Assembly (NCBI GenBank): GCA_943355055.1
Contig: CALREA010000008.1
Location: forward strand, 1 to 38,515
DNA length: 38,515 nucleotides
Reading direction: 5' to 3'
Source of the DNA: Candidatus Peribacteria bacterium
Lineage (GTDB): Bacteria > Patescibacteriota > Gracilibacteria > UBA1369 > UBA12463
Positions within the stretch are counted from its first letter, which is position 1. Every line of letters begins with the position of its first letter. The notes below the pieces were generated by a model. The model made no database searches, was not told where the DNA came from, and saw only the letters and a program-made list of their open reading frames with translations. Position numbers and translations under genes: made by a program. Shown here in pieces: positions 14,213-38,019 of this stretch.

Positions 14213-14230
14213 AGCTGATTTCGCATTTTT

Positions 14231-14259
14231 TTGATTTATTCCCATATATTTGCTATAAT
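14231..14259 (+). promoter_or_regulatory. Promoter of small RNA copy R0
   Basis: TTGATT (14231-14236), exactly 17 nt, then a perfect TATAAT (14254-14259). Exactly 8 nt later the outer stem of the RNA hairpin begins. The two other copies of this RNA (at 36.77 and 36.95 kb) have the same 17-nt and 8-nt spacings. Confidence 0.7.
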
Positions 14260-14265
14260 AAAGAT

Positions 14266-14318
14266 GTAAAAGCTCTCGGCCGTAGTTTATGCACTACACT
14301 TAAGCGGGGGGCTTTTTT
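14266..14318 (+). ncRNA. Small structured RNA, copy R0
   Basis: This is a predicted ~50-nt transcript. An outer stem AAAAGC (14268-14273) with GCTTTT (14311-14316) runs into a U-tract (14313-14318). An inner 5-bp stem GTAGT (14282-14286) with ACTAC (14293-14297) closes a 6-nt loop. CGGCC lies before the inner stem and ACTT...GCGG after it. Copies R1 and R2 share these parts while both stems change in a paired way. The 5' end is itself in the stem, so the RNA is nearly a closed hairpin. The U-tract ends exactly at the stop codon of the opposing unknown gene (14318-14680), an arrangement repeated by R1. It also acts as a plausible terminator for the upstream operon. Confidence 0.65.
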
Positions 14319-14680
14319 CATATCGGAAATATGGAAATAAGATACTTTTGTCCGTTCTTTTTAAACTCCTTTATCTGTACCATAAACTTATCCCCTTCTT
14401 TTGTTTTTCCCAGAAATCGATGAAGGATTTCATCTTTTTTATCAGGATTATCTTTTGAGGTAGGGGCAACTCTCGTTTTCGCTATAAGTTCCAATGCAGC
14501 CGGAAAACATTTTAATCTCCTCATGCGATCTCTCCAATTCACCTTTTGAAATAAGTGCTCCCAAAAATAATGGAGGAAAATCTTATTTTTATCAAAATAT
14601 ATAGAACGAATATATGGCTTGCGCTTTGATTTACGCTTGATTGCCAAAAAATAATCAAAGGCCTCGTCGGCTACTATCAT
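14318..14680 (-). CDS. Unknown small basic protein, paralogue 1 of the RNA-linked family
   Basis: This 120-aa, Lys/Arg-rich protein has no signal peptide or membrane segment. It aligns over about 100 residues with the product of 36331-36738 (65 identical positions by hand alignment). Shared segments are KRKPxIRS, KIFLxxFWEH, RDRxRRLKxF, AAxELIxKT, EILHRF, VQIKE and QKYLISxFP. Invariant candidates for function are the His in FWEH, the His in LHRF and the Arg in RDR and RRLK. The size, basic charge and conserved His/Arg/Lys would suit a small RNA-binding protein or RelE/colicin-D-like nuclease, but this is only a guess. It stands alone, ends at the U-tract of small RNA R0, and has a TATAAT one base before the ATG, so the true start could be slightly downstream. 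Confidence 0.65.
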   Translation of the reverse strand: MIVADEAFDYFLAIKRKSKRKPYIRSIYFDKNKIFLHYFWEHLFQKVNWRDRMRRLKCFPAALELIAKTRVAPTSKDNPDKKDEILHRFLGKTKEGDKFMVQIKEFKKNGQKYLISIFPI

Positions 14681-14783
14681 AATTATAGAGGCTGATCAAG
14701 GTATTACAGGCTTAAATAAGCCAAGAATATGTCATCTTTTTGTCAGAAAATTTTCAGGAATCTTTCAGAATTTTGACAGCCAC

Positions 14784-35331: not shown

Positions 35332-36165
35332 CTACAGCGGACTCTCAATTCCCCCAATCGCCTTCCTACTCACATGCGTATACCGTTGCGTCGTGCGGAT
35401 ATTGCTGTGCCCCAATAACTCCTGTACATATCGCACATCCACGCCACGCTCCAGCAGATGCGTAGCAAAACTATGCCTCAGCGAATGAAACGTCGCCGCC
35501 ACACTCACCACCGCCCGTCCCAAAGCCTGCGCAAAAACCTTCTGCGCGCTCCGACTACTCAATCTTCCACCTCGATTACTCCCAAAAACAAAATCCCCCG
35601 CCTCACGTCCGACAATCAACTTCCGCACATCTTCAACTACCATCGAAGGCAACACCGTCACCCGATCTTTGTTTCCTTTTCCCTGCCGCACCGTAATCAA
35701 ACCGCCCCCGAAATCCACATCCCTCACGCGTAACGCCGTAACCTCACTCACCCTCAACCCCGCCCCATACGCCACAGCCAGCATCAACCGATGCTTAAAA
35801 TTCACCGTCCCCTCCAGCATTCTCACAATCTCCCCATGTGACAAAACCACCGGCAACCGCTGCTCCCTCCTCCCAAACTTCAAATCCACCCTCCCCACCA
35901 CCTTCAAAACCTCCCGATACAAAAACAAAATACTATTCAAATACACATTCACCGTCGACGAACTCTTCCCCGCATCAATTTTTAAAAGTAAAAATGCCCG
36001 AACCCTCTCCCGACTCCACTCCAACAATATCCTCTCCTTCAAACCCAAATCTCCCATACAATATAAAAAATAACCCCTCAGACAACCAAGATACACCTTC
36101 ACCGTCCGCCTACTATAATTCCTCAACTTCATCTCCCCTTCAGCCATTTTCAATAATTCATCCAT
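35332..36165 (-). CDS. Tyrosine recombinase (Xer/integrase-like)
   Basis: This 277-aa recombinase has an N-terminal SAM-like core-binding domain (about 1-90). All catalytic residues are present: Arg138 (GAGLRVSEV), Lys163 (QGKGNKDR), His227-x-x-Arg230 (FHSLRHSFATHLLERG), His253 (LGHSNIRTT) and Tyr262 (QRYTHV). The C-terminus, RKAIGGIESPL, resembles the SPLD tails of XerC/IntI relatives. The additional segment that marks IntI between the third patch and box II is absent. The coding strand is very G/T-rich, so the plus strand here is strongly C/A-rich, unlike most genes in the window. The start is ATG 36165; a longer frame to 36216 adds a hydrophobic, unconserved stretch. It faces away from the cassettes at 36.3-38.5 kb. 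Confidence 0.88.
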   Translation of the reverse strand: MDELLKMAEGEMKLRNYSRRTVKVYLGCLRGYFLYCMGDLGLKERILLEWSRERVRAFLLLKIDAGKSSSTVNVYLNSILFLYREVLKVVGRVDLKFGRREQRLPVVLSHGEIVRMLEGTVNFKHRLMLAVAYGAGLRVSEVTALRVRDVDFGGGLITVRQGKGNKDRVTVLPSMVVEDVRKLIVGREAGDFVFGSNRGGRLSSRSAQKVFAQALGRAVVSVAATFHSLRHSFATHLLERGVDVRYVQELLGHSNIRTTQRYTHVSRKAIGGIESPL

Positions 36166-36217
36166 ACGAACAAGAATAACAAATAAAAAAACCAATCCCC
36201 ACACTACCACGCCCACT

Positions 36218-36271: not shown

Positions 36272-36289
36272 ATGGCTAGCGTAAGCCAT
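36272..36289. repeat. Short inverted repeat between recombinase and first cassette gene
   Basis: ATGGCT (36272-36277) and AGCCAT (36284-36289) form a perfect 6-bp inverted repeat with a 6-nt centre. It lies just after the direct repeats and before the promoter of the next gene, and is a candidate crossover or operator site. Confidence 0.3.
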
Positions 36290-36295
36290 AAACGA

Positions 36296-36324
36296 TTGAC
36301 CACCCCTACAAAAAATGATACATT
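36296..36324 (+). promoter_or_regulatory. Promoter of RNA-linked paralogue 2 (leaderless)
   Basis: TTGACC (36296-36301), a 17-nt spacer and TACATT (36319-36324). The ATG at 36331 is 6 nt after the -10 box. Confidence 0.5.
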
Positions 36325-36738: not shown

Positions 36739-36740
36739 CA

Positions 36741-36791
36741 TAAAAGATCCTCCGCAAGTGTGGTACGAAAACCACGGGCCGAAGATCTTTA
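36741..36791 (-). ncRNA. Small structured RNA, copy R1
   Basis: This predicted ~50-nt minus-strand RNA has an outer 7-bp stem AAAGATC/GATCTTT (36784-36790 with 36743-36749) and an inner stem GTGGT/ACCAC (36771-36775 with 36760-36764) around a 6-nt loop. CGGCC lies before and ACTT-GCGG after the inner stem. A U-tract at 36742-36745 ends it, 3 nt from the stop codon of paralogue 2. It has the same layout as R0 with compensating changes in both stems. Confidence 0.65.
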
Positions 36792-36798
36792 CGAAAAT

Positions 36799-36926: not shown

Positions 36927-36980
36927 AATAAAAAGGCCTTCGCTAATGTGTGGTACGAAAACCACGTGCCAAGGCCTTTC
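36927..36980 (-). ncRNA. Small structured RNA, copy R2
   Basis: This predicted ~50-nt minus-strand RNA has an outer 9-bp stem AAAGGCCTT/AAGGCCTTT (36971-36979 with 36932-36940) and an inner stem GTGGT/ACCAC (36961-36965 with 36950-36954). The 6-nt loop is the same as in R1. A U-tract lies at 36930-36934. It points the same way as R1, about 190 bp behind it. No protein gene ends at this copy. Confidence 0.62.
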
Positions 36981-36987
36981 TAAAGCC

Positions 36988-37016: not shown

Positions 37017-37086
37017 TACCACATTTCTATAACTTCACACGCCACTCTTTCATTCCCATACATATTTCGCTACACTTTCCCTGTAC

Positions 37087-37153
37087 ACTTAACCTTTTTG
37101 TTCCGTTTCTATCAAAACTCTAAAGCCGAAGTTCGTATAGAAACCAGTTAGCC
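37087..37153 (+). repeat. Possible attC-like site 0
   Basis: It begins ACTTAAC (37087-37093, fitting RYYYAAC) and ends GTTAGCC (37147-37153, a known variant of the integron core site). Between them is a perfect 8-bp stem, GTTTCTAT (37105-37112) with ATAGAAAC (37137-37144). The unpaired spacer is lopsided (11 nt against 2), and the site differs from the two downstream ones, so this is less certain. Confidence 0.35.
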
Positions 37154-37540: not shown

Positions 37541-37644
37541 CTAACAGCGCGTTAGCGGTTCGCTGAGGCTCACCCAAGTTGACTGGTTGTGGCCTTCGGC
37601 ACATTATACAACCAGCCAACTTCGCCAACGCGCGAACGTTATGT
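37541..37644 (+). repeat. attC-like site 1
   Basis: The ends are CTAAC (37541-37545) and GTTATGT (37638-37644), with TAAC/GTTA pairing. Inside, GCGCGTT (37547-37553) pairs with AACGCGC (37627-37633), AAGTTG (37576-37581) with CAACTT (37617-37622), and GGTTGT (37585-37590) with ACAACC (37608-37613). The terminal loop contains CCTTCGGCA. The unpaired spacer is A on the left and GAAC on the right. This is the R-L-L-R plan of integron attC sites, and it closely parallels site 2. Confidence 0.62.
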
Positions 37645-37727
37645 GCCATGTGTGCGATCTTTCCTGGAATCAGAGAAACAGCTTTGAGAGCAGAAAAGAT
37701 GATGGCATAGACTCACACACCACATAA
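37641..37727 (+). other. Mini-cassette without a clear gene
   Basis: Only about 76 nt separate attC-like sites 1 and 2. The stretch holds a 28-codon frame starting in the core site of site 1 (ATG 37641) and ending at the TAA in the left end of site 2, but nothing shows that it is translated. Gene-less cassettes are known in integron arrays. Confidence 0.4.
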
Positions 37728-37843
37728 CAGCGACTATGCGGTTCAGCCTCGCCTAAAGCTCAGCTTCACCCAACTTGCACGGGTGTACACCTTCGGCATA
37801 TCATACACCCGCACAAGTTCGCATGAGTCGCAAACGTTGTGCG
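37721..37843 (+). repeat. attC-like site 2
   Basis: The ends CACATAAC (37721-37728) and GTTGTGCG (37836-37843) pair with one mismatch. GCGACT (37730-37735) pairs with AGTCGC (37826-37831), ATGCG (37736-37740) with CGCAT (37820-37824), AACTTG with CAAGTT, and GGGTGT with ACACCC. The loop again carries CCTTCGGCAT. The spacer is A on the left and AAAC on the right, as in site 1, and both have a one-sided bulge on the left arm ending in CACCC. Left-right asymmetry of this kind is how attC strands are recognised. Confidence 0.62.
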
Positions 37844-38019
37844 ACATATTTTTGAAAAATTTGTTTATTGAAATGTTTTTGGTGGGCTTTAAGAAATAAG
37901 GAATTTGATTTTTTTAATTTTTAAAGAGGGGGGGTATAAGGTGTTTTCTCCGCTATCGCTCCGAAAAAGTTTTAATTTTATGAGGAAACCCACTATTATT
38001 TATATACAATGATGTAATT

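Follow-up and report, generated by a model that had tools for sequence, protein, structure and literature searches.

Short hydrophobic peptides are the usual toxins of type I systems, and in several of these systems, including par/Fst-RNA II, TxpA/RatA and BsrG/SR4, convergent genes share a stem-loop. Type III systems (ToxIN, CptIN and TenpIN; also AbiF-RCd22) combine a protein with a small structured RNA and have no protein antitoxin; type II systems use a protein antitoxin. In type III systems, the RNA lies upstream of the toxin gene on the same strand, in one operon and in repeated units, and it is pseudoknotted in the crystallised members of ToxIN and CptIN (PMC5086642, PMC12373285). BECR-fold RNases show a pattern of a His in an N-terminal helix and a Ser/Thr in a C-terminal strand, and PBECR nucleases occur in large polyvalent proteins and in MuF C-terminal domains (PMC5512222).

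The pair described here couples a gene for a protein of about 135 aa to a structured RNA of about 54 nt, which lies head-on at the gene's 3′ end, and it was found in a window of 38,515 nt, which is the whole stretch of DNA that was analysed. It shares with type III systems a protein accompanied by a small structured RNA, the absence of a protein antitoxin, an RNA ending in an intrinsic terminator and, by prediction only, the endoribonuclease character of the ToxIN group. However, the type III RNA is co-transcribed from upstream, whereas RNA and gene were convergent in 42/42 pairs and the RNA had promoter signals of its own. The tandem-repeat antitoxin of type III contrasts with what is usually one unit here, no pseudoknot is evident, and the type III toxin belongs to the ToxN family, whereas the protein in our pair has a RelE/BECR-like predicted fold and gave no match, ToxN-like or other, in Pfam, NCBIfam or PADLOC (intact gene product P0002). 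To our knowledge, every known type III layout differs from this convergent arrangement with its own promoter, one unit and no evident pseudoknot. Because the layout features of type III (PMC5086642) were not found, we did not file the system there, but it may work like type III despite its different layout.

The geometry resembles that of par/Fst-RNA II, in which convergent genes also meet at a shared stem-loop and the RNA is also short. However, the par/Fst toxin is a small hydrophobic peptide, whereas the protein in our pair has 135 aa, a pI of about 10 and a globular AlphaFold model, and the unpaired RNA bases are conserved across phyla. The predicted fold of the protein (residues ~46-135) weakly resembles that of the RelE, HigB, BrnT, CdiA and PBECR RNases, and it has in common with them a helix His, a last-strand Ser and a basic character; it differs from BECR-fold RNases in having no sequence-family match and an N-terminal extension of about 45 residues, and from type II systems in that its partner is an RNA. 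We found no description of this RNA-gene pair in the literature searched.

Our preferred interpretation, to which we assign a probability of roughly 0.55, is that the RNA serves as the antitoxin in a two-part toxin-antitoxin module with the convergent gene, most likely acting by binding the protein. The gene would encode a basic endoribonuclease-like toxin of the BECR/RelE fold. A sigma70-type promoter belonging to the RNA would drive its transcription in the direction of the gene. The transcript would end at its own outer stem and U-tract, and would bind and block the toxin protein in the manner of type III RNA antitoxins, recognition being through the conserved unpaired GGCC, UUAUA and ACUUAGCG elements.

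Three copies of the RNA lie in the window. The limits given by a covariance model built from 21 copies (R2) are 14266-14319 on the forward strand (copy 1, 63.1 bits) and 36740-36792 and 36929-36981 on the reverse strand (copies 2 and 3). Copy 2 is convergent with the intact gene P0002; copy 3, recognised by sequence and by the model, is a tandem copy without its own gene and has a syntenic counterpart in a congener, G003. A preliminary description had noted hairpins at these three places, all of which were recovered, and its plan of a long outer stem, GGCC-type 5′ junction, 5-bp inner stem, 6-nt loop, GCG(G) 3′ junction and U-tract was upheld. In the refined fold, the outer stem comprises about 12 bp, followed by a G.G mismatch and two G-C pairs, and together with the U-tract it forms a terminator. 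The family was, however, taken to have three members, which is too few: a model search found the RNA at no fewer than seven places in the same genome (three on contig C8 and others on C18, C21, C37 and C42), the C21 copy being a weak match of 30.4 bits.

Evidence for a conserved structure came from two alignments. Among 21 sequences aligned by sequence only, 97.2% of cells were paired, compared with 91.5% after shuffling and at most about 60% when the alignment was slid, and there were 30 two-sided compensatory cells vs 9.0 in shuffled data. With 64 distinct sequences, two-sided changes were seen in 15/19 pairs and in 100 cells (18.7 shuffled), with 96.5% paired, but since this alignment was fitted to the model, and model-fitted alignments are biased toward their model, the 21-sequence figure is the cleaner one. 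A nested stem and an internal loop account for the covariation in the 64-sequence alignment. Thus, the covariation that had been claimed on the basis of the three copies was borne out in a larger alignment, supporting their assignment to a structured RNA family. The model also placed the RNA at the expected site in nearly all loci of a scan with one genome per species. Searching Rfam with the RNA gave no match, either at the gathering threshold or with E relaxed to 1, in agreement with the earlier impression that it belongs to no known RNA family.

The stems contain 121 G-U pairs and 14 A-C mismatches. Because the opposite strand turns G-U into A-C, the selected strand is the one running against the gene, as had been proposed, and the 121:14 ratio implies that selection acts on the strand of the RNA, not on a terminator of the mRNA. 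Several unpaired positions were nearly invariant across phyla, namely the G.G mismatch, the C after GGC, the UUAUA loop and the 3′ GCG junction. No variable guide segment was seen in the RNA alignment.

Most RNA copies are predicted to have a sigma70-type promoter just upstream. That of copy 1 (14231-14259, forward strand) consists of TTGATT at 14231-14236, a 17-nt spacer, an extended TG and TATAAT at 14254-14259; position 14231, where the preliminary description had begun its interval, is the first base of this -35-like hexamer, so that the interval covered both promoter and RNA. On the reverse strand, copy 2 is preceded by TTGACT (36827-36822) and TATGAT (36804-36799), and copy 3 by a weaker promoter, TTGCAT (37016-37011) and TATTCT (36993-36988). 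Among 66 homologous loci, a -35 element with at least 5/6 matches was present at 30 (2.1 shuffled), a -10 element with at least 5/6 matches at 46 (13.9 shuffled) and an extended TG at 37 (8.3 shuffled). Spacing was mostly 16-17 nt and the promoter ended about 6-7 nt before the stem. From this position, the RNA would begin at the foot of the stem and run as far as the U-tract, which suggests a discrete transcript of about 54 nt made from its own promoter.

Linkage between RNA and gene was strict. For each intact gene with a readable downstream flank, the hairpin was located directly 3′ on the opposite strand. A convergent RNA was found at 42/47 gene matches in relatives and a same-strand RNA at 0/47; of the other five, two lay at contig ends, one was a pseudogene, and the last two had a diverged hairpin that could be recognised by eye. 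At its 3′ end, the RNA adjoins the stop-codon region of the gene or runs into it, at a median distance of -1 nt in 37 loci. A short U-run follows the hairpin on the gene strand as well, and the mRNA probably uses the shared hairpin as its terminator. RNA and protein distances were correlated (rho 0.56, 0/2000 permutations), a relationship that joint inheritance alone would also produce. The RNA usually occurs as a single unit, with occasional tandem copies that mostly have their own promoter and terminator.

In the window, module 1 (RNA and gene; 14213-14770, right edge approximate) was delimited by comparison with congeners. It is absent from the orthologous site in three of them, and the flanking genes in G004 are 11 nt apart; RNA and gene come and go as one unit. 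Besides the RNA and the gene, each with its promoter, this module has no space for a protein antitoxin. Among 47 loci, no conserved neighbouring ORF was found, and the two largest small clusters were reading frames across the RNA itself. The lack of a recurrent neighbouring ORF, together with the lack of room in the polymorphic unit, argues that there is no protein antitoxin.

The RNA is also found where the gene is broken or missing. The gene copy in module 1, P0001 (14318-14680, reverse strand), which lies tail-to-tail with RNA copy 1, is decayed: it covers profile positions 19-135 only, lacks the first ~18-20 codons of the family and is 59% identical to P0002 where aligned. Compared with the copies in the genus, the deletion extends from the -10 region into the coding sequence, such that the apparent ATG falls where intact copies have their -10 element. 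Copy 1, which had been labelled the founder of the family, therefore adjoins a broken gene, and the label is inapt. In relatives, 27/69 RNA model matches had no gene match beside them. Several of these 27 were weak, at least one was at a contig end and some were tandem extras; others adjoined gene stumps, with either the N-terminal 32-50 codons fused to the RNA or just the last codons left. An RNA without a gene match was detected in 9/99 genomes, in three of the nine by weak matches only. Loss of the gene with retention of the RNA is the pattern that would be expected of a toxin and its antidote; RNA-only genomes could also reflect a role of the RNA that is independent of the toxin.

Two gene-less loci had distinctive surroundings. 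At one (L187, G129:C1:163700-166000), the RNA faces a BrnT-like/CopG-type toxin-antitoxin pair in convergent orientation, at a distance of 2-3 nt from its end, and a HepT-like gene is located upstream. At the other (L186, G229:C1:1-5000), four RNA copies without an adjoining partner gene are clustered with two DUF3800 genes. Other RNA motifs have been reported next to DUF3800 genes, and DUF3800-linked motifs are reportedly included in a paper on 224 candidate structured RNAs.

The intact gene P0002 (36331-36738, forward strand) encodes 135 aa. Compared with its ortholog in a congener, dN was 0.019 and dS 0.153 (dN/dS about 0.12), indicating that it is under purifying selection. A promoter-like site (TTGACC, 17 nt, TACATT; 36296-36324, forward strand) was assigned tentatively by comparison with copies in the genus. 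Just upstream of its -35 element is an inverted repeat, ATGGCT-N6-AGCCAT (36272-36289), a possible operator, and variants of it occur in the genus copies.

For the protein family, nothing consistent across members was found in Pfam (50 members), NCBIfam, PHROGs, PADLOC or PDB sequences. An AlphaFold2 model based on 50 sequences was globular, with a pLDDT of 94.9 and a pTM of 0.87. Foldseek gave no match at E<=0.001 in PDB or among viral models; its top, non-significant PDB match was RelE. When the Foldseek candidates were aligned by a second structural method, RelE, BrnT, HigB, MqsR-complex and CdiA toxin chains were all within the first eleven rows, with weak matches (Z 3.9-5.4) spanning residues ~46-135. 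The closest viral structural matches, likewise non-significant, were large polyvalent proteins and MuF C-terminal domains. The His/Ser pattern of the BECR fold is present in the family: His58, located in helix 53-60 of the model, was invariant among 50 sequences, and Ser131, located in the last strand (127-134), was conserved in at least 90% of them; both were invariant in a set of 22 sequences. The median pI of the family was 10.1. The partner protein is thus likely an RNase-like toxin, and the weak point of this assignment is the weak fold match, with no Foldseek hit at E<=0.001 and a Z of at most 5.4.

The main rival, because of the par/Fst geometry, is antisense control. An RNA of this kind would pair with the 3′ end of the toxin mRNA through complementary terminator loops, as in RNA II of par/Fst, and would block translation or trigger decay. 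The convergent promoters of par and its shared stem-loop usable on both strands (PMC7472228) match the arrangement described here, as does an RNA that reaches the stop-codon region. In addition, matched duplexes between the RNA and the mRNA 5′ region were slightly better than mismatched ones (P about 0.016), but this weak signal was non-specific, as two coding segments gave comparable or stronger values (P 0.0003 and 0.03), and the pairing test found no specific complementarity to the start-codon region. Antisense pairing needs neither the same unpaired bases across phyla nor G-U-biased pairing, and a 135-aa basic globular protein is not the short hydrophobic peptide of type I systems, which makes this explanation unlikely. 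Direct binding is favoured over it because unpaired bases are conserved across phyla, the RNA strand's own structure is under selection, and orphan RNAs have been retained.

Still less probable is a functional RNP that is not a toxin-antitoxin system, with the RNA as cofactor, guide or substrate, for example in defence or RNA processing. Strict linkage, co-divergence and a basic protein fit any RNA-protein pair, but persistence of the RNA without a detectable gene is the decay expected of an antidote, and the alignment has no variable segment that could serve as a guide. It is very improbable that the hairpin does no more than terminate transcription in both directions, or that it is a mobile repeat hitchhiking with the gene, and the evidence from promoter, strand and inner stem led us to reject the terminator-only and simple-repeat readings: the outer stem and U-tract do form an intrinsic terminator and the modules are dispersed and polymorphic, but the RNA has its own -35/-10 signals, a conserved inner stem and internal loop and strand-specific pairing, copy 2 is 53/53 identical in congener G003 despite a gene dS of 0.153, and inspection of the module edges by eye revealed no terminal repeats.

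The preliminary description had noted neither the convergent gene, nor the RNA's own predicted promoter, nor the spread of the family across CPR. It had called for a search for homologues, and these proved numerous: the RNA family was present in 32/99 related genomes and in 33/380 genomes drawn across the phylum, and the gene family in 24/99 (up to five per genome) and 28/380, all counts resting on draft genomes. The scan with one genome per species found the gene family at 62 loci, nearly all in CPR, including Peregrini/Peribacteria, Magasanik-, Uhr-, Moran-, Kerfeld-, Falkow-, Kuenen-, Buchanan-, Parcu-, Pace- and Saccharibacteria. Outliers, whose assignments are provisional, were one bin with the label Nitrospirae and three of termite-gut type with the label Clostridiales. 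No relatives were found in the viral contigs searched.

The family libraries that were searched contain neither partner, and the pair is found repeatedly in a large part of CPR, a very large group about whose defence and stability systems little is known. Should the RNA neutralise the protein, RelE-like toxins would be controllable by RNA instead of protein, RNA antitoxins would have a second architecture, and a testable two-gene system would be available within 0.6 kb. Copies with a broken gene and a kept RNA provide natural experiments on antidote retention. Whether the pair represents a new class, a BECR-fold RNase toxin restrained by direct binding of a single-unit, convergent structured RNA in a compact mobile cassette of ~0.55 kb characteristic of CPR/Patescibacteria, is a tentative proposal that we rate a little short of an even chance.

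Congener G003 has kept module 2 together with the tandem RNA. The tandem RNAs at 36740-36792 and 36929-36981 share a TTTTCGT loop, the congener's second copy (L048) having TTTATAC, and this sharing between neighbours suggests gene conversion. A tyrosine recombinase gene (35332-36216, reverse strand) lies beside the module; its best NCBIfam match was integron integrase (202 bits, cut-off 265). Two imperfect palindromes of ~100 nt (37541-37646 and 37722-37848) start with TAACAGCG, end near ACGTT and fold as single strands better than their shuffles (z -2.9 and -3.3); these resemble the attC sites of an integron-like array of cassettes, here in a CPR genome. In addition, a 105-bp stretch at 37047-37151 recurs in congener G003 (C6:79908-80012) with 86% identity.
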